This document shows positions 22,211 to 35,429 of a stretch of DNA of 64,000 nt, piece by piece. The notes below the pieces were generated by a model. The model did not search any database, was not told where the DNA came from, and was given only the letters and a program-made list of their open reading frames with translations. The translations under genes and the position numbers were made by a program. This DNA is from Geothrix sp. 21YS21S-4 (GTDB lineage Bacteria > Acidobacteriota > Holophagae > Holophagales > Holophagaceae). The stretch's first letter is position 1. Every line of letters begins with the position of its first letter. The stretch spans positions 1,674,001 through 1,738,000 of the forward strand of contig NZ_CP132719.1 in the NCBI RefSeq assembly GCF_030845995.1. Reading direction: 5' to 3'.

Positions 22211-23113
22211 TTAACGAAGCCAGCCCTTCCGCCGGAACCAGATCCAGATCCCCAGCGCCGTGACGGCCATGAGCCCCATCACCAGGGGATAGCCGAAGCG
22301 GTGCTCCAGCTCGGGCATCCGCCGGAAATTCATCCCGTAGATCCCGGCGATGAAGGTCAGGGGCAGGAAGAAGGCGCTGAAGATCGTGAGCACGCGCATG
22401 ACTTCGTTGGTGCGCTGGCTGGCGAGGTTGATCTCCAGGTTCATCAGGTGGGTGGCGCTCTCCAGCAGCTCGTCCGCCCAGGTGTGCAGCCGGTCGGCCT
22501 CCTCCACCACGTCCGCGAGAAGGCCGTGGTCGTCGCGGGCCTGCTCCTTCAGGTTGCCCAGGGCCGCGCGGGTGCGCCACAGCGTGCGCTTGACGACGGC
22601 GCAGCGGCGCTTGATGCCGTAGACCTGCTTGATGCCCAGGTGGGGCGCTTTCCGGCTGAACAGGGCCGTCTCGATCCGGTCCAGCTTCTCCTCGCTCTCC
22701 CGCATGGGTTCGTCGAAGGATTTCACCGCGGCGGCGCACAGGGCGAGGACCACCTGCTCGGGACGGAGAGGGGGGCCCCCCGCGGCGTGCCGGGCCGCCT
22801 CTGCGAAGAAGGGCTGCTCCCGCCGGTGGACGGTGATGAGGGCGCCTTCCATCAAGAGGAGCACCAGGCGCCGCGTCATGGCCTGGATGGTGTCGCCCCG
22901 CTTGGCCACTTCATCGTAGGCGCGGAGGATCAGGAGCTGCTGCCCCGGGAGGCGCTCGTACTTGGGCAGGTGGGGCTGGTTGAGCAGGTCGCGCACGGCG
23001 GCGGGATGAAGTCCGTAGCGCGCGGCGACTTCCGCCATCTCGGCGGCGGTGGGATCCACCAGATCCACCCAGGTGAAGGTCGAACCCTCGGGAAGGGGCA
23101 GGTTCCGCAGCAT
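22211..23113 (-). CDS. corA: CorA-family divalent cation channel
   Basis: A 300-residue CorA-type Mg2+/Co2+ (sometimes Zn2+) transporter. The cytoplasmic N-terminal domain contains WVDLVDPTAAEM, and a long helical funnel (DRLHTWADELLESATHLMNL) leads to two C-terminal membrane helices with the YGMNF signature of the pore entrance. It ends in a basic tail. Its ATG overlaps the TGA of the upstream dehydrogenase gene (TGATG), implying coupled translation. Ion selectivity is not predictable here. Confidence 0.93.
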   Translation of the reverse strand: MLRNLPLPEGSTFTWVDLVDPTAAEMAEVAARYGLHPAAVRDLLNQPHLPKYERLPGQQLLILRAYDEVAKRGDTIQAMTRRLVLLLMEGALITVHRREQPFFAEAARHAAGGPPLRPEQVVLALCAAAVKSFDEPMRESEEKLDRIETALFSRKAPHLGIKQVYGIKRRCAVVKRTLWRTRAALGNLKEQARDDHGLLADVVEEADRLHTWADELLESATHLMNLEINLASQRTNEVMRVLTIFSAFFLPLTFIAGIYGMNFRRMPELEHRFGYPLVMGLMAVTALGIWIWFRRKGWLR

Positions 23114-24177
23114 CAGGGCACCCGGCAGACCACCTTGCCGAAGCCCTGTCCGGCCTCGAGGTGGCATTGGGCCGCGGGATAGTCGGCCAGGTCGAACACG
23201 CGGTCCAGGACCGGCCGGAACGGCGGATTGGCGGGCCGCTGGGCCAGCAGGGAGATCAGGGTCCACAGGTGCTCGCGCCGCCCCATGTACGAGCCGCGGA
23301 TCTGGATCTGCTTGGCGAACAGAGCGCGGAGGTCGAAGGAGGTCTCCCGACCCGTGGTGGCGCCGCAGGTGACGATGCGGCCGCCCCGCGCGCAGGCGGA
23401 CAGGCTGGCGCCCCAGGTGGCGGCCCCGGTGTGCTCGAAGACCACGTCCACGCCCCGCTTGCCCGTGAGGTCGCGCACCTTCCCGGCCAGGGCTTTCATC
23501 TCCCCCCGCACCAGGACGTGTTCCGCCCCCAGTTCCCAGCAGCGGATCGCCTTGGCTTCGCTCCCCACCACGGCGATCGCGGTGCCCCCGAGCGCCTTCA
23601 CCAACTGGAGGGCGGCGCTGCCGACGCCGCTGCCGCCGCCCCACACCAGCACGGTCTCGCCGGGGCGGAGCGCCGCCTTGGGGACGAGCATCTCCCAGGC
23701 GGTGAGGAAGACCAGGGGAAAGGCCGCCGCCTGCTCGAAGCTCCAGTTCCCGGGGATGGGCAGGAGGTTCGCCGCGGGCACCAACACGTGGGTCGCGGCG
23801 GTGCCGTCGCAGGCGTGGCCCAGGATGCCGTAGGAGGGGCACAGCATGTCGTCGCCGCGGAGGCAGGCCGGACACAGCCCGCAACTCAGGCCCGGCGCGA
23901 TCATCGCGCTGCCGCCCAGTTCCACGCCCTGCGGGAGGCGCGTCCCCTGCCCCACCGCCTCCACGAAACCCGCACCGTCGCAGCCCGGCGTGAGGGGCAG
24001 AGGCAGCGCGAAGCCGGGAATCCCCTCCGTCGTCCACAGGTCGAGGCGGTTGAGGGCCATCGCTTTCACCGCGATCCGCGCCCACCCCGGTTCGGGATCG
24101 GCGGGGACGAAGGCCTCCCGCGTGGGCGTTCCGACGGCGCCGTGCTGGGTCACGCGGAAACGGAAGGCTTCGCTCAC
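23113..24177 (-). CDS. Zinc-type MDR alcohol dehydrogenase/quinone oxidoreductase
   Basis: A 354-residue medium-chain dehydrogenase. Residues about 85-110 carry a structural-zinc Cys cluster (CGLCPACLRGDDMLC); LTPGCDGAGFVEAVGQG is the GroES-like core, and VLVWGGGSGVGSAALQL is the NAD(P)-binding loop. A catalytic-zinc Cys at the usual N-terminal site is not evident (MALNRLDLW), so it may be closer to zinc-independent enoyl reductases with a retained structural zinc. The GTG at 24177 has GAGAGGAG upstream and fits the family N-terminus; the longer open frame is unlikely. Coupled to corA by a TGATG overlap. Confidence 0.85.
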   Translation of the reverse strand: MSEAFRFRVTQHGAVGTPTREAFVPADPEPGWARIAVKAMALNRLDLWTTEGIPGFALPLPLTPGCDGAGFVEAVGQGTRLPQGVELGGSAMIAPGLSCGLCPACLRGDDMLCPSYGILGHACDGTAATHVLVPAANLLPIPGNWSFEQAAAFPLVFLTAWEMLVPKAALRPGETVLVWGGGSGVGSAALQLVKALGGTAIAVVGSEAKAIRCWELGAEHVLVRGEMKALAGKVRDLTGKRGVDVVFEHTGAATWGASLSACARGGRIVTCGATTGRETSFDLRALFAKQIQIRGSYMGRREHLWTLISLLAQRPANPPFRPVLDRVFDLADYPAAQCHLEAGQGFGKVVCRVP

Positions 24178-24713
24178 GGGGCTCCTCTCGGGAGGGGTCG
24201 GCGGGATAAGGGTGCGGGGCGTCCAGTGTAGGCCGCGCGAAAGCGAATGCGTGAACCCCGCCTGGAAGAACCCGCGAGCGCTCGGCGCCATCTCGGACAT
24301 GGCGTTCCCGGATCAGGGGCAAGCGGAGGGACTCGGAAGGTATCGGAGCCTTCCAGGCGATCAGAGGTCCCGCGACGCTGAGGACGTGGATCGATCCCAT
24401 GCCGCAAATGTGGTCGGGCCGGGCTTTCGCCTGATTTCAGAGGTCCTCCCGAAGCGCTTTCTTTCACCCCTCAATTGAGACTGAGTCGCCCTTGTGACAC
24501 CAATCACAGGCTCCTACCCCCGAATAGTGAGGAAGATCATTCATGACCTTTTGGACGGTAAAGGTCGCCGGAAGTGGATGATGCGATTTCACCCCTCCGC
24601 CGCATCGCCTCGACCGTCCGTCACCCGCGCGCAGGACCCCATTCGAAGTGTTCCAGCCCGCCGCGGCCGGAACGATTTTCACGAGACAGTCGCCCTTCAA
24701 TTTTGGAGAAATC
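24178..24713. other. Long divergent intergenic region
   Basis: A 536-bp gap between the MDR dehydrogenase (minus) and the porin operon (plus), the longest gene-free stretch in the window. It holds a perfect TGTGA-N6-TCACA palindrome at 24493-24508 and a smaller inverted repeat (GACCTTT / AAAGGTC, 24545-24566). It is lower in GC than the neighbours around 24460-24560. No convincing small coding sequence, tRNA or riboswitch-like structure was recognised. Confidence 0.6.
24493..24508. promoter_or_regulatory. CRP/FNR-family operator-like palindrome
   Basis: TGTGACACCAATCACA is an exact match to the TGTGA-N6-TCACA core recognised by CRP-type regulators in E. coli. It lies 206 bases before the porin start codon and 316 bases from the divergent dehydrogenase start. 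The nearby lower-GC sequence suits a promoter. Which CRP-family protein would bind it is unknown, as none is encoded in this window. Confidence 0.5.
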
Positions 24714-26240
24714 ATGGTGCTACCTCTGACAAAGCCGTTTCGGCGGAAGGGTCCCCTCGCCCTTCTCCCTCTTGGGGGAACCCGCGGTGCCGGCGTGAAA
24801 ACGGCTGTCGCCACGCTTCTGCTGTGCGCGGGGGCGAGCCCGGTTTTCGCGGCGCCTCCTTCCATCTCCGTGCCCATCACCTCCCAGCCGGACGGCCAGA
24901 AGGATTCCTTTTCCTTCCTGAGCAACCTCGAGCGCAGCAACTTCTTCCTGGGGGACATGTTCGGCCTGCGCCCGACGCTCGGGACCTACGGCATGACCGT
25001 GGTCGTCCAGGAGACCAGTGAGGTGCTCGGGAACGTCAGCGGCGGGATGAAGAAAGGGGCGGCCTACGACGGCCTGACCCAGCTCATTCTCCAGATGGAT
25101 ACGCAGCGCGCCTTCGGCTACTACGGCGGCCTGTTCAACATGAGCGTGCTGAACCTCCACGGGACCAACTTCAGCGCCGAGAACCTGGGCTCGCTGCAGA
25201 CGTCCAGCGGCATCGCGTCGAACCGGGCGACCCGCCTGTGGGAACTCTGGTACGAACAGAAGTTCCTGGAAGAGGACCGCCTCAGCGTCCGCGTGGGACA
25301 GCAGAGCGCCGACCAGGAATTCATCGTCAGCTCCAATGCCCTGTTCTTCGTCAACACGATGATGGGCTGGCCCGCGGTGCCCTCCTACGATCTGCCGGGC
25401 GGCGGACCCGCCTACCCGCTTTCGGCGCCGGCGATCCGCGCGCGCTACCGGTTCGGCAACGCGTGGAATCTCCTCGTGGGCGTCTTCAACGGCAGCCCCG
25501 CCAAGACCAACGAGGGCGACGCGCAGGAGGAGAACAACCACGGCACCAGTTTCCCGATGCACAACGGGACTTTGACGTTCATGGAACTGCAGTACGTCTA
25601 TCCCTCCGTCGGAAGCCTGGTCTACCCCGGCGAGAAGGCGCCCCTGTCCCGGACCTACAAGCTGGGCGCCTGGTACAACTCCCAGCCCTTCGACCACCTC
25701 CGGTACGACCAGAACGGCCTCTCCCTGGCCAATCCCGCCAGCAACGGTACGCCCGCCACGGCGCACGGCAACCTGTCCATCTACGCCGTCGCGGACCAGA
25801 TGCTGTGGCGCAACGACAACGATCCCAACAACACCATCAGCGCCTTCACCCGGATCATGGGAACCCCGAAGACGGATCGCAATCCCATCAGCTTCAGCAT
25901 GAACGCGGGCCTCGTCTGCCGCGGGCCCATCAAGAACCGGGCGAACGACACCCTCGCCGTGGGAATGGGCTTCGTGCGCGTCAGCAGCCAGGCGGCGGGC
26001 CTCGACCGGGACACCGCCCAGTTCGCGCAGGCCGCGGGCGACGGCGGCTACTACCCCGTCCGCAGTTCCGAAACCTTCATCGAGGCCACCTACCAGTGCC
26101 AGGTGACGCCCTGGCTGCAGATCCAGCCCGACATCCAGTACGTCTGGAACCCCGGAGGCGGGATCGCCAATCCCAACGCGCCGACCCAGCGCATCGGCAA
26201 TGAACTCGTGCTGGGCGTCCGCGCCAACATCCTTTTCTGA
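24714..26240 (+). CDS. OprB-like carbohydrate-selective porin
   Basis: A 508-residue outer-membrane barrel protein with a long basic N-terminus and signal peptide ending ASPVFAAPP. The mature part alternates aromatic beta-strands typical of the OprB family: LERSNFFLGDMFGLRP, TRLWELWYEQKFL, LSVRVGQQSADQEFIVS, TYKLGAWYNSQPFDHL and a C-terminal strand GNELVLGVRANILF ending in Phe, as required by the BAM machinery. OprB porins import sugars or other small polar solutes. GGAG precedes the ATG at 24714. First gene of a five-gene plus-strand run, with only 11 bp to the next. Confidence 0.85.
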   Translation: MVLPLTKPFRRKGPLALLPLGGTRGAGVKTAVATLLLCAGASPVFAAPPSISVPITSQPDGQKDSFSFLSNLERSNFFLGDMFGLRPTLGTYGMTVVVQETSEVLGNVSGGMKKGAAYDGLTQLILQMDTQRAFGYYGGLFNMSVLNLHGTNFSAENLGSLQTSSGIASNRATRLWELWYEQKFLEEDRLSVRVGQQSADQEFIVSSNALFFVNTMMGWPAVPSYDLPGGGPAYPLSAPAIRARYRFGNAWNLLVGVFNGSPAKTNEGDAQEENNHGTSFPMHNGTLTFMELQYVYPSVGSLVYPGEKAPLSRTYKLGAWYNSQPFDHLRYDQNGLSLANPASNGTPATAHGNLSIYAVADQMLWRNDNDPNNTISAFTRIMGTPKTDRNPISFSMNAGLVCRGPIKNRANDTLAVGMGFVRVSSQAAGLDRDTAQFAQAAGDGGYYPVRSSETFIEATYQCQVTPWLQIQPDIQYVWNPGGGIANPNAPTQRIGNELVLGVRANILF

Positions 26241-26251
26241 ACGGAACGATC

Positions 26252-27442
26252 ATGAGCACCTTTCTCGCGACCCTCCCCCCCGCATCCAACGTTCAAAAGC
26301 GTCGCCGCACCTTCGGAGCCCTCAGCCTGCTGGCGCTCCTGATGGCGACGGGAACCGTTTCCATGCGCGCCGCAGAATCCGGCTGCTTTCTTGAAACCGT
26401 CCGCAAGCGCCGCAACCTGACGTCCACGGTCCCCGACAACGGCGACGTGAACCCCTACGCGATCGTGGTGGCGCCCGTGGCCGCCGGGAAGATCGCCAAG
26501 GGCGACGTGCTGGTGTCCAACTTCAACAACGTCTCCAATCTCCAGGGGACGGGCACCACGATCGTCCAGTACAACCCCGCCTCCAAGGCCACTACCCTGT
26601 TCGCGAAAATCCCCCAGAAGCTCCCGGAATGCCCCGGCGGCGTGGGCCTGAGCACCGCCATGACCATGCTGAAGTCCGGCTGGGTCATCGTGGGAAGCAC
26701 GCCGAGCACCGATGGAACCACGGGGACCCTCGGACAGGGCGGCCTGCTGGTGATCGATCCCAACGGCAAGACCGTCGCCGTGTGGACCGGTCCCGCCATC
26801 AACGGCCCCTGGGGCAACATGGCGGTGGTGGACAAGGGCGACTCCGCCACGCTGTTCATCAGCATGGCCGGCTTCGACGTGCCGAGCCCCAAAGTGCTCG
26901 ATCCCAAGACCGGCTTCCCGGTGGTGATCCACAAGGCCACGGTCCTGCGCGTGGAAGTGGCCATTCCCGAGGGCCAGCCCCCCGTCCTGAAGAGCCAGAC
27001 CGTGATCGCCGACGGGTTCGCCCAGCGGGCCGACCGCGGGAACTTCCTGTTGGGCCCCACCGGCCTGGGCTTGAGCGAGGACGGCACCCTGTACGTCACC
27101 AACGGCCTCGACAACGTCATCACCGCGATTCCCGAAGCTCTGACACGGACGACCAGCGCCGGCACCGGCCGGGTCGTCACCCAGGGCGGCCTGCTCAGCT
27201 GGCCTCTGGCCATGACCATCACCCCTTCGGGCCATCTTCTGGTCTGCAACGGAAAGGACGGCCGGGTCGTGGAAGTCGATCCCATCGCCGGCAAGCAGCT
27301 CTGCGCGCAGTGGCTCAACTCCAACCAGGCCCAGACCCCTCCGGGCAATGGGAACCTGTTCGGAATCGCCATGACGCCCAATGGGGAAGGCTTCTACTAC
27401 GTCCAGGACGACACCAACACCTTGACGTATGCTGGCAAATGA
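26252..27442 (+). CDS. Secreted NHL-type beta-propeller protein
   Basis: A 396-residue exported protein: basic N-terminus and hydrophobic core (TFGALSLLALLMATGTVSMRA) then a propeller of NHL/SMP-30-like repeats, for example GPTGLGLSEDGTLYVTNGLDN, LAMTITPSGHLLVCNGKDGR and FGIAMTPNGEGFYYVQDD. Several Cys are present (CFLETV, ECPGG, VCNGK, QLCAQW). No lactonase catalytic set is obvious, so function could be binding or an enzyme such as a gluconolactonase-like hydrolase. It is placed between a porin and an exported peroxidase, suggesting a shared periplasmic or extracellular substrate. Confidence 0.75.
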   Translation: MSTFLATLPPASNVQKRRRTFGALSLLALLMATGTVSMRAAESGCFLETVRKRRNLTSTVPDNGDVNPYAIVVAPVAAGKIAKGDVLVSNFNNVSNLQGTGTTIVQYNPASKATTLFAKIPQKLPECPGGVGLSTAMTMLKSGWVIVGSTPSTDGTTGTLGQGGLLVIDPNGKTVAVWTGPAINGPWGNMAVVDKGDSATLFISMAGFDVPSPKVLDPKTGFPVVIHKATVLRVEVAIPEGQPPVLKSQTVIADGFAQRADRGNFLLGPTGLGLSEDGTLYVTNGLDNVITAIPEALTRTTSAGTGRVVTQGGLLSWPLAMTITPSGHLLVCNGKDGRVVEVDPIAGKQLCAQWLNSNQAQTPPGNGNLFGIAMTPNGEGFYYVQDDTNTLTYAGK

Positions 27443-27476
27443 GCGCGTTCAGGTGACGCGCCAGGGAGTCGATTCG

Positions 27477-28811
27477 ATGAATTCAGCCAATACGAAGAAG
27501 GCTCAGCCACGACAGCGTCTATCGCTGCTCGTGGCTGGGTTGCTATTGCTTTCCGGTTCCATCCTGGGCGCGGGAAAGCCCACGAAGGCAGTACCCGCGA
27601 AGGTCTCGCCGAGCGCGCAACCAAATCAGGTGGAGCCTTTTTGGGGAGAGCACCAGGGCGGCATTTTGACCTGGCCCATCCAACACCAGAATTACTTCGC
27701 CGCTTTCGACCTCGCGACGACCAAGCGGGAAGACGTCATCAAGCTGCTGAAGGCCTGGACCGAGGCGGCCGCGCGAATGACCGCGGGCGAAACGGCCCAG
27801 CCGCTTGAGGGCGGATTGAAGCTGGCCGTGCCGCCTGCCACGCCCGTGGAAGTCTTCGACACGCCCGATTCGGGCATCATCGCAGCCGATACCGGCGAGA
27901 CGATCGGAATGTCCCCCTCCCGCCTGACCATCACCTTCGGATTCGGCGCGACCCTGTTCACCAAGGACGGCAAGGACCGCTTCGGCCTCGCTTCGCAACG
28001 GCCCGAAGCCCTGGTCGACATGCCCAAGTTCATCGGCGACCAATTGGCGGAGAACCGCACGGGCGGCGACATTTCCGTCCAGGCCTGTGCCGAGGATCCG
28101 CAAGTCGCGTTCCACGCCGTGCGCCAGCTCGCCCGGATCGCCGAGGGCGTGGCCCACATCCGCTGGGTCCAAATCGGTTTCCGGCCCAACACGGGATCCC
28201 GTCACCTCTTCGGATTCTCGGTGGAAGGAATGGAAAATCCCTCCGTGGAAGATCCCAAGGTGATGGCCAAGGTGGTCTGGAGCGGCAACGAAGGGCCGGA
28301 ATGGATGCGCGGGGGCAGCTACATCGTGGCCCGCCGCATGCGCTTCGCGCTCGAGCACTGGGACCAGATGCCCACGAAGTACCAGGAGAAGGCCGTCGGC
28401 GGCGGGAAATACCACGGCAGCCCCATGATGAACCCCCATCAATCCGCGGAGCCCTCTCCCGCGGCCCTGGAAGACGACGATCCGGCCGCGCATCCTCCCA
28501 GCCACCTCGACATCGTGGGACCCCATGCGGCCACGATGTTCCGGCGCTCCTACTCCTACAACGACGGCGTGAACTTCACCACCGAGCGCTGGCCGCCCTG
28601 GCGCCAGGGCCTGGAATACGACGCGGGCATGTTCTTCATCTGCTACCAGCGGGATCCCCGCACCGGGTTCATCAAGCTGTTCGACATGATCGCCAAGCAG
28701 GATTTCCGCCTGAACCAGTTCTGGACCCACGAAGGCAGCGGACTATTCGCCTGCCCGCCGGGGGTCGAAAAGGGCGGCTACATCGGACAGGGCCTTTTCG
28801 AGCCCAAGTAA
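27477..28811 (+). CDS. DyP-type heme peroxidase, exported, atypical distal motif
   Basis: A 444-residue dye-decolourising peroxidase of the EfeB-like class. An N-terminal signal (LSLLVAGLLLLSGSILG) precedes the fold; no strict twin-Arg motif is seen. Family landmarks are LTITFGFGATLF, RFGLASQRP, VVWSGNEGPEWMRGGSY, the SHL proximal-His region, the distal Arg in FRRSYSYNDG and DAGMFFICYQRDP. The distal GxxDG motif (GFKDG in EfeB) reads GFSVEG: Asp is replaced by Glu with one inserted residue. ATG 27477 has GGAG; an in-frame ATG at 27429 overlaps the previous gene and lacks one. The first ~80 bases have lower GC than the rest. Confidence 0.9.
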   Translation: MNSANTKKAQPRQRLSLLVAGLLLLSGSILGAGKPTKAVPAKVSPSAQPNQVEPFWGEHQGGILTWPIQHQNYFAAFDLATTKREDVIKLLKAWTEAAARMTAGETAQPLEGGLKLAVPPATPVEVFDTPDSGIIAADTGETIGMSPSRLTITFGFGATLFTKDGKDRFGLASQRPEALVDMPKFIGDQLAENRTGGDISVQACAEDPQVAFHAVRQLARIAEGVAHIRWVQIGFRPNTGSRHLFGFSVEGMENPSVEDPKVMAKVVWSGNEGPEWMRGGSYIVARRMRFALEHWDQMPTKYQEKAVGGGKYHGSPMMNPHQSAEPSPAALEDDDPAAHPPSHLDIVGPHAATMFRRSYSYNDGVNFTTERWPPWRQGLEYDAGMFFICYQRDPRTGFIKLFDMIAKQDFRLNQFWTHEGSGLFACPPGVEKGGYIGQGLFEPK

Positions 28812-28870
28812 ACCGGGTCGCCGCTCCGGCGGATCTGATCAGCGTCAACGAAATTGAGGAGCAGCAGCCC

Positions 28871-29971
28871 ATGACCAGCACGCAACAGCCCCTGAAGCCC
28901 ACCGATGTGATCACCCTCGACCAAGGCGGATCGCGGAAACAGTTCATCAGCGCGCGACGCGAGGGGTCGGACGAGCTGGCCATCTTCGATGCCTTCAAGC
29001 CCGGGTCGTCCACCGTGGTCGCCCAGATGGCCTTCGGCGGACTCGGATTCCACGATGCGGCGTGCGCCCGCATGGGCGGCGTGGAATGGCCCATGTTCTG
29101 GCTGCAGGGCGATGTCTGCCCCGGGGTTCACGTGGCCGGCGTTCAGTCCTTCGCCATGGAGGGCCGTCCCGTCCGCCGCGTGATGCTTTCCAATCGCGTC
29201 GTCGGCAGTTTCTGGTCGGACGAGGACGCGGACTATTGCCTGTTGGCCGGGCTCCTGCCGGCGGATCCCACCGCCGACCGCAGCGCCCAGACCCTCAGCA
29301 GTTTCGAGCAGATGGAAGCCGGCCTGAAAGAAGTCGGCATGGACTTCTCCCATGTGGTGCGGACCTGGTTCTACCTCGATGAACTGCTGGACTGGTACGA
29401 CGAATTCAACGTGGCGCGGACCGCGTTCTTCGAAGCCCGGGGCGTTTTCGACCGCCTCATTCCGGCCAGCACCGGGATCGGCGCCAGCAACCCCGCCGGC
29501 GCCGCGGTGGCCTCTGGAGCGCTGGCCATCCGGCCCCGCCATGACCGCGTCCACATCCAGGAAGTGGAATCCCCGCTGCAGAACCCGGCCACCGAGTACC
29601 GCAGCTCCTTCAGCCGCGCGGTGGAGATGGCCTTCCCCGACCGCCGGGTGCTGACCATTTCAGGTACGGCCAGCATCGCGCCCGACGGGAAAACGGTGCA
29701 TCAGGATGACGTCGTCAAGCAGATCCAGCTCACGCTCGACGTGATCGAAGGCATCCTGAAATCCCGCGGAATGGACTGGCAGAACACGACCCGCGCTGTG
29801 GCCTACTTCCACGACATCGCCGAACTGCCCACCTTCGATGCCATCTGCCGCGAGCGGGGCATTCCGCCCCTTCCGGTCGCCCCCGCCCACGCCACGGTCT
29901 GCCGGGCCGATCTCCTGTTCGAGATGGAACTCGACGCGGTTCTCGCTGTGCCGGCTTCCGGGAAGGCCTGA
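28871..29971 (+). CDS. Tandem RidA-fold protein, chorismatase-like
   Basis: A 366-residue cytosolic protein with two YjgF/RidA-like halves, arranged as in FkbO/Hyg5/XanB2 chorismatases. Matching landmarks in order are VVRTWFYLDELLDWY, FFEARG, LIPASTGIGASNPAG, then LTISGTASI, GKTVHQDDVVKQIQLTLDVI and CRADLLFEMELDA, where the FkbO family has RTWNY, PAATGIGA, ISATAG, TVHHGDV and EDLLVEIEG. Chorismatases hydrolyse chorismate to a dihydroxycyclohexadiene carboxylate or hydroxybenzoate plus pyruvate. The adjacent DAHP synthase supports a chorismate-linked role. Whether all catalytic residues are kept cannot be judged without alignment; a non-enzymatic Rid protein is the alternative. GAGGAG lies 10 bases before the ATG. 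Confidence 0.65.
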   Translation: MTSTQQPLKPTDVITLDQGGSRKQFISARREGSDELAIFDAFKPGSSTVVAQMAFGGLGFHDAACARMGGVEWPMFWLQGDVCPGVHVAGVQSFAMEGRPVRRVMLSNRVVGSFWSDEDADYCLLAGLLPADPTADRSAQTLSSFEQMEAGLKEVGMDFSHVVRTWFYLDELLDWYDEFNVARTAFFEARGVFDRLIPASTGIGASNPAGAAVASGALAIRPRHDRVHIQEVESPLQNPATEYRSSFSRAVEMAFPDRRVLTISGTASIAPDGKTVHQDDVVKQIQLTLDVIEGILKSRGMDWQNTTRAVAYFHDIAELPTFDAICRERGIPPLPVAPAHATVCRADLLFEMELDAVLAVPASGKA

Positions 29972-30020
29972 GCTCTTTCCAACCCAGCGGCTCCTCAGCC
30001 GTTGATGTACCACCCCAACC

Positions 30021-31187
30021 ATGGAGTACACGACCTGCCCTCGGCGCGGCCCGCGCGATATCACGACGTCCCCTCCGGACGGAATCTCCAGGCCGCTCCA
30101 AGTGCATCCCCCACTCCCCTCTTTCCTGGTCCCCGTGGATATCGTCGAAACTCGCGCCCTGCCCTCGCCCGCCCAATTGCTGGCGGAATTCCCGAGGACC
30201 GAAAGCCAGGCCGGGTTCGTGGCGCGCGCGCGACGCGAAATCCACCAGGTGCTTTTCGGGGGCGATAGCCGGTTCCTGCTGATCATCGGTCCCTGCTCCA
30301 TCCACGACCTGGATGCGGGCAGGGACTATGCCCAGCGCCTGGCCAAGCTCGCAAAGGAGGTTTCGGACCGGATCCAGGTGGTGATGCGGGTTTATTTCGA
30401 GAAGCCGCGCACCACGGTGGGCTGGAAGGGCCTGATCATGGACCCGCATCTCGACGGTTCCAATGACATCGCTACCGGCCTGCGCCTGGCCCGCACCTTC
30501 CTGCAGGACGTCCTCGATCTGGGCCTTCCGACCGCCACCGAACTGCTCGACCCCATCACGCCCCAATACATCGCGGATCTCATCTGCTGGTCCGCCATCG
30601 GCGCCCGCACGGTGGAATCGCAGACCCACCGGCAGATGGCCTCCGGCCTCTCCATGCCCCTGGGCTTCAAGAACGGCACCGACGGCAGCATCGCCACGGC
30701 GATCAATGCCATCCGGGCGGCCGCACAGCCCCATACCTTCCTGGGCGTCGACCTCGCCGGCTGCGCCTCCGCCGTCGTCACCCGGGGGAACCCCGACTGC
30801 CACGTGGTCCTCCGCGGCAGCCGCAGCGGTCCCAACTACTCCCCCGCCCACGTCGCCCAGGCCGAGCAACTGCTCGCCCAGGCGGGATTGAACCCCTCGA
30901 TTCTCGTCGACTGCTCGCACGGCAACTCCGCGAAGCAGCCCGAGCGGCAACTCGACGTGATGGAGGACCTGCTCACGCAGATCTCCGCGGGCAATACCTC
31001 CATCAGCGGCGCGATGATGGAAAGCAATCTGGGGGCCGGAAACCAGCCATTCCCCCAACCGTGGGACAAGCTCCGCTACGGGGTTTCCATCACCGACGCG
31101 TGCATCGACTGGCAGACAACGGCGGCGCTGATCCGGCGGGTCCATGCTGCGCTCGCCCCCCGGTTTGCGCAGGCGGCCGGCCAATAG
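30021..31187 (+). CDS. 3-deoxy-7-phosphoheptulonate (DAHP) synthase, AroF/G/H type
   Basis: A class I-alpha DAHP synthase, condensing phosphoenolpyruvate and erythrose-4-phosphate as the first step to chorismate. Hallmarks: IGPCSIHD, VYFEKPRTTVGWKGLIMDP, GFKNGTDG, RGSRSGPNY and VDCSHGNSAK with metal-ligand Cys/His. The full frame gives 388 residues; similarity to E. coli AroG begins near VETRALPSPAQLLAEFPRTE, so the first ~38 residues are extra. No clear ribosome site precedes ATG 30021; GTG 30135 is an alternative start. It sits 50 bp after the chorismatase-like gene. Feedback sensitivity to Phe, Tyr or Trp is not readable. Confidence 0.9.
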   Translation: MEYTTCPRRGPRDITTSPPDGISRPLQVHPPLPSFLVPVDIVETRALPSPAQLLAEFPRTESQAGFVARARREIHQVLFGGDSRFLLIIGPCSIHDLDAGRDYAQRLAKLAKEVSDRIQVVMRVYFEKPRTTVGWKGLIMDPHLDGSNDIATGLRLARTFLQDVLDLGLPTATELLDPITPQYIADLICWSAIGARTVESQTHRQMASGLSMPLGFKNGTDGSIATAINAIRAAAQPHTFLGVDLAGCASAVVTRGNPDCHVVLRGSRSGPNYSPAHVAQAEQLLAQAGLNPSILVDCSHGNSAKQPERQLDVMEDLLTQISAGNTSISGAMMESNLGAGNQPFPQPWDKLRYGVSITDACIDWQTTAALIRRVHAALAPRFAQAAGQ

Positions 31188-31276
31188 CCCCCTTCGAAGC
31201 ACCTGAACTCCGCAAATGGGAAGAGGTGGCCGCCCACCGCCGCTGTCCTGCATCTTCGTCGAACGGGAGAACTCAC

Positions 31277-33463
31277 ATGCCGACCGTGGCCCTTGCGGGC
31301 AATCCCAACTGCGGAAAGACGTCTCTCTTCAACGGGCTGACTGGCGCGCGCCACCACGTGGGCAACTGGCCGGGCGTCACGGTGGAAAAGCGCTCGGGCA
31401 TGGTGGAGGTGGACGGGGTCTCCGTCGAGATCGTGGATCTCCCCGGAACCTACTCCCTGTCCGCCCAGAGCGAGGACGAGCGCATCGCCTCCTCCTTCCT
31501 GTCCCAGCCGGGCGTGGACGTCATCGTGAACGTCCTGGACGCCTCCAACCTCGAGCGGAACCTGTACCTCACCACCCAGCTCCTCGAGCTGCGGAAGCCC
31601 ATGGTCTTCGCGCTGAACATGATGGACGACGCGGTGCGCCAGGGCCTCGAAGTGGACATGGAGGCCCTTTCCCGGCTCCTCGGCGGACGCGTGGTGGCGA
31701 CCGTGGGCAACCGGAAGGAGGGCCTCGACGACCTGAAGGCGGCCATCCTCCAGGCCGCCCAGAACTCGGATCCCGCGCGGGATCCGACCCAGGGATCGCC
31801 GCGCGTGGCCTACGGCGACGACATCGAGGGCGAGGTCCGGAAGCTGGCGGAAGAGGTGCGCCGCGACGAGAAGCTCACCGAGCACCTCTCCGGCCGCTGG
31901 TGGGCCCTCCGCCTCCTCGAAGGGGCCCGCGACGCCGTCGAGCAGGCCGAGGCCAGCCACGCCGGCAAGGCCATCCGGCAGCAGGTGGAAGCCAGCCGCG
32001 CCTTCCTGGAGGGCCACCTCGGCGACGACTGCCCCACCCTGCTCGCGGAGCGCCGCTACGGGTTCGCCCGGGGCCTCGTCGCGGAAGTGGCCACGCGCCG
32101 CAACGCGAAGGCCGAGCGGGACCTCACCGACCGCCTGGATTCCGTCCTGACCAACCGCGTGCTGGGCATCCCGATCTTCCTGGTGATCATGGTGGCGGTC
32201 TACACCCTGACCTTCGTGATCGGAAAGTATCCCCAGGACGCCATCGGCGCCGGGATGGGCTGGCTGCACGACACCGCCGCGGCGCACCTGCCGCCGGGGG
32301 AACTCACCAGCCTGTTCGTGGACGGCGTCATCCCCGGCGTCGGCTCCGTGGTGGTGTTCCTGCCCTCGATCATGATCCTGATGGGCTGCGTCTCCTTTCT
32401 GGAGGACACGGGCTACATGGCGCGGGCCGCCTTCATCATGGACCGGCTGATGCACCTGATGGGCCTGCATGGGAAGAGCTTCATCCCCCTCGTGATGGGC
32501 ATGGGCTGCAACACGCCCGCCATCCAGGCCACGCGCACCATCGAGGCCAAGAGCGACCGCTTCATCACCATCCTGGTCGCCCCGTTCGTCTCCTGCTCCG
32601 CCCGCCTGCCCGTCTACATCCTGCTGGCCGGGGCCTTCTTCAAGCCGTTCCAGGGCGCCCTCGCCGTGGTCGCCATGCACGTCCTCGGGTTCGTCGTGGC
32701 CATCGCCGCGGGCAAGTTCCTGCGCGTGAGTTTCTTCCGGGGCGAGAACACGCCCTTCGTGATGGAACTGCCTCCCTACCGCCTGCCCGTGCTGCGGACC
32801 ACCGCCCTCCACATGTGGGAGAAGGGGTCGGTCTTCCTCCGCAAGGCCGGCACCGTGATCTTCGCGGGCGCCACGCTGGTGTGGTTCCTCAGCAACTATC
32901 CCGGCCTGGCCGACCGCGCCCTGACGGCCGAGCGGCAGACGCAGAAGGAGGCCATCCAGGCTCAGAAGCTCCCCGAAGCCGAAGAGAAGGAGAAGCTCGA
33001 CGACCTCGATTTCGCCTACCGGGGCCGGATCATGAACTCCAGCCTGGCCGCCCGCTTCGGCAAGGTCCTCCAGCCGGTGTTCCGTCCCTTCCTCGATCCC
33101 GACCGCCGGCGGCCCGAGGCGTGGAAGGATGGCGTGGCCCTCACGGCCGGATTCGTCGCCAAGGAGATCGTGGTGGGCACCATGGCGGTGGTCCACCAGG
33201 CGAAGGCCGAAGCTCCGGAAGGCGCCGAAACGACGCCCCTCCAGCAGAGCCTCCGCGAGAATTCGGGGATGACGCCCCTGACGGCGCTCGCCTTCATGGT
33301 GTTCACGCTGATCTACACGCCCTGCCTGGGCACCGTGGGCATGATCCTGAAGGAGACCCGCAGTTGGGCCTGGACTGGGTTCTCCGTGGGCTACGGCATC
33401 GGCCTGGGCTGGACGCTCGCCTGGCTCACCGTGGTCGCCGGCCGCGCCCTGGGGTTCGCGTGA
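31277..33463 (+). CDS. feoB: Ferrous iron transport protein B
   Basis: A 728-residue FeoB, the inner-membrane Fe(II) importer. The N-terminal G-domain has G1 GNPNCGKTSLFN, G3 DLPGTYSL and G4 NMMD; a helical GDI-like spacer (about 170-280) leads to two Gate/core membrane regions containing MGMGCNTPAI, PFVSCSARLPVYILLAG and TPCLGTVG. Length is slightly below the E. coli protein. GGGAG precedes the ATG at 31277. There is no feoA gene upstream in the window; instead a tiny Cys-rich gene overlaps the 3-prime end. Confidence 0.95.
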   Translation: MPTVALAGNPNCGKTSLFNGLTGARHHVGNWPGVTVEKRSGMVEVDGVSVEIVDLPGTYSLSAQSEDERIASSFLSQPGVDVIVNVLDASNLERNLYLTTQLLELRKPMVFALNMMDDAVRQGLEVDMEALSRLLGGRVVATVGNRKEGLDDLKAAILQAAQNSDPARDPTQGSPRVAYGDDIEGEVRKLAEEVRRDEKLTEHLSGRWWALRLLEGARDAVEQAEASHAGKAIRQQVEASRAFLEGHLGDDCPTLLAERRYGFARGLVAEVATRRNAKAERDLTDRLDSVLTNRVLGIPIFLVIMVAVYTLTFVIGKYPQDAIGAGMGWLHDTAAAHLPPGELTSLFVDGVIPGVGSVVVFLPSIMILMGCVSFLEDTGYMARAAFIMDRLMHLMGLHGKSFIPLVMGMGCNTPAIQATRTIEAKSDRFITILVAPFVSCSARLPVYILLAGAFFKPFQGALAVVAMHVLGFVVAIAAGKFLRVSFFRGENTPFVMELPPYRLPVLRTTALHMWEKGSVFLRKAGTVIFAGATLVWFLSNYPGLADRALTAERQTQKEAIQAQKLPEAEEKEKLDDLDFAYRGRIMNSSLAARFGKVLQPVFRPFLDPDRRRPEAWKDGVALTAGFVAKEIVVGTMAVVHQAKAEAPEGAETTPLQQSLRENSGMTPLTALAFMVFTLIYTPCLGTVGMILKETRSWAWTGFSVGYGIGLGWTLAWLTVVAGRALGFA

Positions 33464-33600
33464 GCGTCCAGGGCTGGCTTGCCCTCCTGGTTGTCGCGGC
33501 CACCGCCGCCGGGCTCATCTGGCGTCTCCTTCCGCGATCCGGCGCGCCGGGCTGCGGGTGCGGCGGAGATTCCTGCGCTTCCGAGAAGAAGAAGCGCTGA
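33460..33600 (+). CDS. FeoB-associated Cys-rich membrane protein
   Basis: A 46-residue protein starting with GTG that overlaps the feoB stop (GTGA), so it is translationally coupled. One membrane helix (WLALLVVAATAAGLIWRLL) is followed by a Gly/Cys-rich tail GCGCGGDSCASEKKKR with three Cys. This is the hallmark of the small FeoB-associated Cys-rich family, often fused to or beside FeoB, which may deliver or sense ferrous iron at the membrane. The frame is too short for ordinary ORF-length cut-offs. Confidence 0.85.
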   Translation: MSVQGWLALLVVAATAAGLIWRLLPRSGAPGCGCGGDSCASEKKKR

Positions 33601-33649
33601 CTTCTTGAAGGATCACGACCCGCGCACCAGGAATGGGAGGCCCTGTTCC

Positions 33650-33777
33650 TGCTCCTTCTTGGTGCCCTTGGCGTCTTGGCGGTGATTCCTTTCCGCGCCG
33701 AAACGAAGGACGACCACTCCAAGTTGCCTGATCGGGCAGTTCTTGGTGTCTTCGTGCCTGGGTGGTGGATTTTATCT
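33650..33777. repeat. Degenerate family C remnants
   Basis: Two half-elements are seen: TTCTTGGTGCCCTTGGCGTC followed by TTGGCGGTGATTCCTT near 33655-33692, and TTCTTGGTGTCTTCGTGCCT with GGGTGGTGGATTTTATCTTTT near 33740-33781. Both correspond to the right arm of the elements at 43001 and 57592; the matching left arms are only weakly recognisable. They fill the 193-bp convergent gap between the FeoB partner and gpsA. Confidence 0.6.
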
Positions 33778-33793
33778 TTTCGAGGGGAAGCGC

Positions 33794-34792
33794 CTACTCC
33801 GACTTCAGCGACCGGGTCATCAGACGGTGGACGGCTTCTTCGGGGGGCTCGCCGTTCAGCAGGCGCTGGACCTCGGCGGCGATGGGCAGGTCGAGGCCGT
33901 GTTCCCCGGCCAATTCCAGGGCGGCCTCAGTGGTGAACATCCCCTCGATGACCTGGCCTCCGAGGGCGTCCCGGGCGGCTTCCACGGTATGGCCCTTCCC
34001 CACCAGTTCTCCGAAGGTCCGGTTGCGGCTCTGGGGACCCGTGGCGGTGAGCAGGAGGTCGCCCATCCCGGCGAGGCCCATCACGGTGGCCGGCTGGCCT
34101 CCCAAAACCTCCACCAGCCGCGCCATCTCGGCCAGCCCGCGGGTGATGAGGGCGGCCCGGGGGTTGTAGCCCAGCTTCAGCCCGTCCACCAGTCCCGCCG
34201 CGATGGCGAGCACGTTCTTGAGGGCGCCGCACAGCTCCGTCCCCACCACGTCGCGGCTGAGGTAGATCCGGAGCCTGTCGCAGGCCAGCTGCGCCTGCAG
34301 GGCCCGCGCCCGCTCGTCCGAAACCTCGGGCGGCAGCGCCATGGTGATGGCCGAGGGGACGCCCCGGCTCACTTCGTCCGCGAAGGTGGGGCCCGACAGG
34401 GCGCCCACGGGCACGTCCAGGACGCCGGTCAGGGCCTGGGAGAGCGTCTGGTGGCTGCCGCGGAGGATGCCCTTGCTGACGTGGATCACCAGTTCGGGCG
34501 TCTTCGGCGCCTGGGGGCGCAGCCCGCGCCAGGCCTCCGGCGTCACCTGGGTGGGCATGGCCGAGATCCACAGGGGCGCTTCGAAGGCCGCCGCGGGATC
34601 GTTTGAGGTCTCCAGCCCGTCGGGAAACACCACGTCCTTCAGCCGCAGGTGGCGCCGCGTGGCGGCCATCTGCGCCATTTCCTCCTCGAAGGGCCCCCAC
34701 AGGGCCACCTTGGCGCCCGCCCGGGCCCAGGTGATGGCCAGGGCCGTGCCCCAGGCACCGGATCCGAAAACGCCGATGTCAGCCCTGGACAT
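33794..34792 (-). CDS. gpsA: Glycerol-3-phosphate dehydrogenase [NAD(P)+]
   Basis: A 332-residue GpsA, making sn-glycerol-3-phosphate from DHAP for phospholipid synthesis. Rossmann motif GVFGSGAWGTALA, HVSKGI, LSGPTFADEV, catalytic Lys in CGALKNVLAIAAGL, and GLAGMGDLLLTATG / SRNRTFG are all present. ATG 34792 is chosen over ATG 34798 because AAGGAGG sits exactly six bases upstream of the former. The start lies inside plsY (14-bp overlap), giving a coupled plsY-gpsA pair whose products act in consecutive steps. Confidence 0.95.
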   Translation of the reverse strand: MSRADIGVFGSGAWGTALAITWARAGAKVALWGPFEEEMAQMAATRRHLRLKDVVFPDGLETSNDPAAAFEAPLWISAMPTQVTPEAWRGLRPQAPKTPELVIHVSKGILRGSHQTLSQALTGVLDVPVGALSGPTFADEVSRGVPSAITMALPPEVSDERARALQAQLACDRLRIYLSRDVVGTELCGALKNVLAIAAGLVDGLKLGYNPRAALITRGLAEMARLVEVLGGQPATVMGLAGMGDLLLTATGPQSRNRTFGELVGKGHTVEAARDALGGQVIEGMFTTEAALELAGEHGLDLPIAAEVQRLLNGEPPEEAVHRLMTRSLKSE

Positions 34793-35429
34793 GGACATCC
34801 TCCTTGGCCGCGCCCCACAGCTTGGATTCCGTCCCCGCCTGGAGGCGCAGGATGTTCTCGCGGTGCTTCCAGATCACCAGGAGGGCCAGGGCCGCCCAGG
34901 GGAGGAGCGGCGACACGGCGGACGGGAGGGGATGTTCGCCCAGGCCCCGGAGGAGCTGGACGGGCACCATGGCCGCCGCGAGGATGCTCCCCAGGCTCAC
35001 GTGCCGGGTCAGCCACAGGACGAAGACGAACATCCCCAGGGGCAGAAGGACCATCGCCGGATCCGCCGCCACGATCACGCCCAGGGCCGTGGCGACGCCC
35101 TTCCCCCCCTGGAACTTCAGCCACGGCGTGAAGACGTGGCCCAGGACCGCCGCCAGCGCGAACAGGGCCAGGGCGTCGGCGCCGAAGCCCACCTTCTTCG
35201 CCAGGAAGACCGGCAGGAATCCCTTCAGGACGTCGAGCAGAAGCGTGACGACGCCCAGGGCCTTCCCGCCCACGCGGCTGACGTTGGTGGCGCCGATGTT
35301 CCCGCTGCCGTGCGTCCGGACATCCCCCTTCCCGGCCAGCTTCACCAGCAGCAGGCCGAAGGGGATGCTGCCGCTCAGGAAGGCCGCGAGGCACCACAGG
35401 ACCGGGGAAGACGGGAGCGTCAAGGGCAT
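34779..35429 (-). CDS. plsY: Acyl-phosphate:glycerol-3-phosphate acyltransferase
   Basis: A 216-residue PlsY, an integral inner-membrane enzyme transferring acyl from acyl phosphate to the sn-1 position of glycerol-3-phosphate. The five helices and conserved loops are visible: SGSIPFGLLLVKLAGKGD, HGSGNIGATNVSR, LGHVFTPWLKFQGGKGVAT and WKHRENILRL. Typical length; a charged C-terminus follows. It starts 12 bases after cinA ends and overlaps gpsA, so cinA-plsY-gpsA is probably one transcript. Confidence 0.95.
   Translation of the reverse strand: MPLTLPSSPVLWCLAAFLSGSIPFGLLLVKLAGKGDVRTHGSGNIGATNVSRVGGKALGVVTLLLDVLKGFLPVFLAKKVGFGADALALFALAAVLGHVFTPWLKFQGGKGVATALGVIVAADPAMVLLPLGMFVFVLWLTRHVSLGSILAAAMVPVQLLRGLGEHPLPSAVSPLLPWAALALLVIWKHRENILRLQAGTESKLWGAAKEDVHVQG

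Follow-up and report, generated by a model that had tools for sequence, protein, structure and literature searches.

The window analysed here, 64,000 nucleotides of Geothrix sp. 21YS21S-4 (contig NZ_CP132719.1, positions 1,674,001 to 1,738,000), carries between a zinc-type alcohol dehydrogenase (ADH) gene and gpsA an inserted block of genes for a porin, an exported beta-propeller, an exported haem protein of the dye-decolourising peroxidase (DyP) type, a chorismatase-like protein, a DAHP synthase and the ferrous-iron transporter FeoB. This block is best read as horizontally acquired, and its gene content suggests an iron-uptake island to which a chorismate branch has been attached. A preliminary description of the same DNA had reported the first five genes as a cluster of short-gapped open reading frames (ORFs) on one strand; all five are present, on the plus strand and in that order, their families are backed by Pfam and NCBIfam profiles, and the export of the first three products holds. 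The cluster does not end with them, however, since the insert goes on through FeoB and a small ORF. In window coordinates, the features are as follows.

24200–33793, no strand: inserted island, flanked by the ADH gene and by gpsA (left edge approximate, the true ADH start lying within the listed ORF)
23113–24300, minus strand: zinc-type ADH gene, native flank (Pfam, gene order in relatives)
33794–34798, minus strand: gpsA, native flank (gene order in relatives)
24714–26240, plus strand: OprB-family porin with signal peptide (PF04966, 1.8e-87)
26252–27442, plus strand: exported NHL-repeat beta-propeller (weak NHL/SGL match, 1.7e-4)
27477–28811, plus strand: exported haem protein of the class I (EfeB-like) DyP type (DyP N domain 3e-35, C domain 3e-31)
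28871–29971, plus strand: chorismatase-like double-Rid protein (Ribonuc_L-PSP 1.8e-15, FkbO_Hyg5-like_N 4e-7)
30135–31187, plus strand: class I DAHP synthase of the AroF/G/H type (DAHP_synth_1 4e-83; TIGR00034 471.4 bits, cut-off 173.2)
31277–33463, plus strand: FeoB ferrous-iron transporter, second copy (TIGR00437 587.3 bits, cut-off 315.65)
33460–33600, plus strand: membrane ORF of 46 amino acids, Cys-rich at its C-terminus and sharing 4 bases with the FeoB stop
33628–33651, plus strand: terminator-like hairpin at the island end (consensus match only)

The insertion is apparent from the relatives. In all ten same-genus genomes inspected, the ADH gene and gpsA are separated by 28 bp at most, while in Geothrix sp. 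21YS21S-4 the same two flanks are held apart by 9.6 kb of genes on the opposite strand. The 9.6-kb block is best read as a horizontal acquisition inserted into the gpsA–ADH operon. Its genes have a GC content slightly below that of their neighbours. Among 46 other same-genus genomes, the propeller had no match and the chorismatase-like protein no homologue except one marginal match (2.7e-4); the DyP had none in the 36 searched. Homologues of the class I DAHP synthase within the genus reach 57% identity at most and the other DAHP synthase of this genome, of the TIGR01361 type, lies at a separate locus at 1166 kb, the window enzyme being the second of the genome. FeoB is likewise a second copy, since the genus orthologue sits elsewhere in the genome. 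A scan of the island edges for repeats gave no convincing target-site duplication, and a sigma-70 promoter scan found none. From porin to DAHP synthase the intergenic gaps measure 12, 35, 60 and 164 bp, and FeoB follows after 90 bp; the DyP start codon is at 27477 or 27429, and that of the DAHP synthase is probably near 30135 and not 30021. For the 46-amino-acid ORF, profile searches returned no family above cut-off. The expectation that the five genes would stay together in relatives was not borne out: linkage of all five was not found in the 46 same-genus genomes, in 396 of the phylum, in 399 of one class or in plasmid records.

A clue to the function of the island comes from its first three genes. 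Porin, propeller and DyP are encoded in identical order and on the same strand in Paraburkholderia and Caballeronia megaplasmids, with identities of 47–50%, 58.5–59% and 50–51%, respectively. There, the trio runs straight into a three-gene ATP-binding cassette (ABC) transporter operon (FbpABC), whose binding protein matches the structures of the ferric-iron-binding HitA, SfuA and FbpA (up to 3e-76). Besides, a site that agrees with the Fur-box consensus at 15/19 positions precedes the Caballeronia porin, being the sole place with at least 13 matches in 19 kb, and the Paraburkholderia porin has a 13/19 site in front of it. Since FbpABC follows the trio and a Fur-box-like site precedes it, gene context points to an iron-uptake module in Burkholderiaceae; in the window, FeoB occupies the position that FbpABC holds there. 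Our literature search retrieved no paper on a porin–NHL–EfeB operon, and the Paraburkholderia/Caballeronia operon is known from annotation only. In a comparison with the PDB, the window DyP is closest to EfeB-type deferrochelatases, with its DyP domains, proximal His and distal Arg all kept. NHL-propeller paralogues of ∼40% identity also occur alone, without porin or DyP, in nine genomes of the family containing genome G420 (loci L109–L117); as stand-alone paralogues, they are uninformative on the module.

The product of the gene at 28871 had been described as aligning motif by motif with FkbO/Hyg5/XanB2 chorismatases. Its predicted model (pLDDT, the predicted local distance difference test, of 66) gives full-length Foldseek matches to the chorismatases 5ag3, 5a3k and 4bps (Hyg5, FkbO) at 1e-16 to 1e-14, and VIA superpositions on chorismatases have Z scores of 24.5–26.0 and root mean square deviations of 3.3–3.7 over 296–300 aligned residues; the match to Hyg5 (26.0, 3.3 and 296, respectively) is far above that to single-domain RidA. 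The equivalents of Hyg5 Glu334, Gly173, Gly240 and Cys327, whose roles are documented for Hyg5-type active sites (PMC7170507), are all conserved, so the loss of active-site residues for which an alignment was proposed did not occur. The catalytic Glu is common to ordinary Rid proteins too, and the position of Arg105, the catalytic residue of RidA (PMC4433059), is taken by His340 in the alignment to 2csl. The remaining signatures tell another story. Four to five chorismatase rows of the alignment, among them Hyg5, FkbO and annotated chorismatases, have the R-x-W-N motif, an insertion preceding the Y..F motif and the YGPxxPxFARA loop, none of which occurs in the window protein or in any of its relatives; the described correspondence is therefore good for the C-terminal catalytic motifs but does not extend to R-x-W-N or to the loop. 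Similarly, TIGR04444 is matched at 67.8 bits for a cut-off of 325, the N-terminal domain PF21168 barely passes (30.6 versus 27), and the protein falls outside the clade of Hyg5, FkbO and annotated chorismatases with a support of 100/100 in a tree where Hyg5 and FkbO were entered as fragments and XanB2 was not included. On these sequence criteria, it belongs to a sister family of FkbO/Hyg5, membership of FkbO/Hyg5 itself being unsupported. An action on chorismate is plausible because of the chorismatase fold and the kept Glu, Cys and Gly, but unproven because the protein lies outside Hyg5/FkbO and lacks the signatures just named.

The relatives of this protein are found in neighbourhoods of their own, and in none of those examined does a DAHP synthase gene stand beside them. 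The nearest homologue (66% identity), from an Acidobacteriaceae metagenome-assembled genome, lies among genes for a redoxin, an HZS-alpha-domain protein, a propeller with a MauG-type cytochrome and a FadL-type protein. The 60% homologue in genome G420 has a gene for an UnbV/ASPIC protein on one side and one for a propeller-TPR-haem protein on the other. Within the class to which G420 belongs, the family closest to the window protein is rare (one of 399 genomes). The 46% homologue in Pontiellaceae adjoins the haem-synthesis genes hemE/hemN; at two Pontiellaceae loci (L003, L005), proteins of ∼1150–1170 amino acids without Pfam match are encoded upstream. In genome G428 (L054, contig 54), the chorismatase-like gene is followed on one strand by HZS-alpha, UnbV/ASPIC and multihaem-propeller genes, with feoB ∼4 kb away; this genome additionally has a Hyg5-like chorismatase (L062). 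An eight-haem TPR cytochrome gene adjoins the chorismatase-like gene at L051, L052 and L056, and at the first two a divergent sulfatase gene does so too. At L057 and L058, the gene lies near repeated homologous proteins that by eye resemble B12-dependent radical SAM proteins. In total, haem-c or FG-GAP motifs were counted in 12/56 genes within two of the chorismatase-like gene versus 6/111 further off (Fisher p = 0.0025), an enrichment that we treat as no more than supportive, since several loci are related, hence non-independent, and the motifs serve as proxies. In Parabacteroides distasonis (L121, NZ_OY725768.1, 162976–175596), a double-Rid gene is inside a porin–imelysin–dihaem oxidoreductase–porin–hemerythrin operon; imelysin/EfeB operons have been tied to iron uptake (PMC3143127). 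Finally, on plasmids of Acidiphilium cryptum and Acidithiobacillus ferrooxidans (L120, L125), the gene stands after ubiT-ubiU-ubiV and before pdxS/pdxT, and the two proteins are 100% identical across the two genera; it is a candidate source of 4-hydroxybenzoate for oxygen-independent ubiquinone synthesis.

Altogether, we favour an iron-uptake island that was gained by horizontal transfer and is joined to a chorismate branch; we give this reading a probability of about 0.55. The empty site in ten of ten relatives, the association of the trio with FbpABC, the Fur-box-like sites in Burkholderiaceae and the second FeoB in the insert all argue for it, as do the proximity of the DyP to deferrochelatases, the Parabacteroides imelysin operon and the hemE/hemN neighbours in Pontiellaceae. 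The iron role leans on strong context in other genomes. A connection of the chorismate branch with iron is more tenuous, drawing on linkage in a single insert and on suggestive neighbourhoods of distant relatives. From homology, the porin would admit iron compounds to the periplasm, where the propeller, together with the EfeB-like DyP, would free the iron or shift its redox state, before FeoB takes Fe2+ across the inner membrane. More speculatively, the chorismatase-like enzyme, supplied by the extra DAHP synthase, may make a quinol precursor or a simple phenol of the hydroxybenzoate type, which might aid iron uptake by serving as a ligand of iron, as a reductant or as a donor of electrons.

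Several observations weigh against this interpretation. Upstream of the window porin, there is no outstanding Fur-like site, the best one matching 11/19, a score reached in 32% of shuffles. The Burkholderiaceae trio has no chorismatase-like gene, DAHP synthase gene or feoB alongside, and for the majority of the relatives of the chorismatase-like protein, no iron gene is evident in the vicinity. The window DyP has a leader without the twin-arginine (Tat) motif RR, and it has lost the distal Asp of the GXXDG motif (GFSVEG instead of GFKDG). In other DyPs, this Asp deprotonates H2O2 (PMC6153280) and its D171N replacement in one of them abolishes compound I formation (PMC8197335), which makes it doubtful that the window protein retains peroxidase chemistry. 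It also remains under the TIGR01412 cut-off (348.6 bits versus 428), which its Burkholderiaceae homologue passes at 465, and the deferrochelatase activity of EfeB is itself disputed (PMC8197335). Moreover, the GC content at third codon positions is 0.94 for feoB, closer to that of native genes, versus 0.83–0.87 for the DyP, chorismatase-like and DAHP synthase genes; because of this departure, the island may have been pieced together from more than one acquisition.

Among the alternatives, the one that we take most seriously, though we hold it unlikely, accepts the iron-uptake island but denies that the 28871 product is a chorismatase: it would catalyse another Rid-type reaction, and both the protein and the DAHP synthase would be chance passengers of insert assembly. 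The fully supported position outside the FkbO/Hyg5 clade, the low TIGR04444 score, the three missing signatures and the absence of any relative with an adjacent DAHP synthase gene are all in line with it, and a catalytic Glu is what ordinary Rid proteins would have anyway (PMC4433059). On the other hand, the best full-length structural matches are chorismatases, far above single-domain RidA, the catalytic Arg of RidA is replaced by a His, a DAHP synthase gene lies directly downstream, and a relative has UbiTUV as neighbour. Fold, kept residues, this neighbour and the adjacent DAHP synthase thus lend support to an action on chorismate.

The preliminary description had put forward, as one hypothesis, an aromatic pathway in which a phenol or quinone derived from chorismate in the cytoplasm would be exported and then undergo oxidation outside it, giving for example a pigment or an electron shuttle. 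The gene content indeed parallels the compartment plan of the scytonemin cluster, with aroG, exported NHL proteins and a periplasmic oxidase (PMC2726228), and the propeller has a weak similarity to ScyE/ScyF in a cluster that includes a DAHP synthase. Nevertheless, its scores are far under the cut-offs (19 of 80 bits for ScyE, 15 of 350 for ScyF), and membership of the scytonemin cluster was rejected. In addition, the cluster has no tailoring, ligase or export gene, the DyP misses its distal Asp, and the trio accompanies an iron ABC transporter, not aromatic genes, with FeoB following in the insert. A chorismate-derived product may still be made, but given the iron module that the trio forms elsewhere, the absence of the five-gene set from the other genomes examined and the position of the 28871 product outside the FkbO/Hyg5 clade, the pathway as proposed is weakened and we regard it as improbable. 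DyPs oxidise aromatics and OprB porins import small hydrophilic solutes, family properties that would also suit an extracellular breakdown of environmental phenolics or lignin fragments with import of the products. This last scenario is the least credible of all, as the insert has no ring-cleavage or aromatic catabolic gene, the DAHP synthase is anabolic, the GXXDG Asp is lost and the partners in Burkholderiaceae are those of iron.

The porin–propeller–DyP trio would be an iron-uptake module common to phyla far apart, and the literature searched yielded no description of it. The chorismate gene pair may hint that the bacterium makes a helper molecule of its own for taking up iron. A bolder proposal, which we consider rather unlikely in its full form, is that a chorismatase subfamily so far unrecognised provides a chorismate-derived phenol reserved for acquiring iron: the iron-uptake operon would have a metabolic branch of its own, DAHP synthase plus chorismatase-like enzyme, making the ligand, reductant or electron donor with which the exported haem protein and propeller would hand Fe2+ over to FeoB. 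The widespread chorismatase-like family, with a function so far putative, is repeatedly encoded close to genes for exported haem proteins and propellers; should it act on chorismate, the shikimate pathway would be linked to the handling of iron by a route other than the classical catechol siderophores.

Compared with known systems, the island shares with scytonemin clusters a DAHP synthase and exported NHL-repeat proteins, but it is devoid of ScyA–C and includes an iron transporter. With FkbO/Hyg5 chorismatases, the 28871 product has in common the overall fold and the equivalents of the catalytic Glu, Gly240 and Cys327 of the Hyg5 type, whereas it stands in a separate clade without RxWN, insertion and YGPxxPxFARA loop. 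Like EfeUOB/FepABC, the island ties an exported class I DyP to an inner-membrane iron transporter; the latter is here FeoB, with propeller and porin in addition, and neither the EfeU permease nor EfeO is encoded in the island, to which the search was confined, the rest of the genome not being searched. Iron operons with imelysin and a dihaem oxidoreductase (DUF1111) similarly combine an exported haem oxidoreductase with a porin, and the one in Parabacteroides includes a gene distantly related to the chorismatase-like one; the window has a DyP in place of the dihaem oxidoreductase and no imelysin. Finally, the porin–NHL–EfeB–FbpABC operon of Burkholderiaceae differs by its FbpABC, where the window has a chorismatase-like gene, a DAHP synthase gene and feoB, and by a DyP with both Tat RR and GXXDG, absent here; yet it shares the first three genes, their order and strand, followed by an inner-membrane iron transporter.

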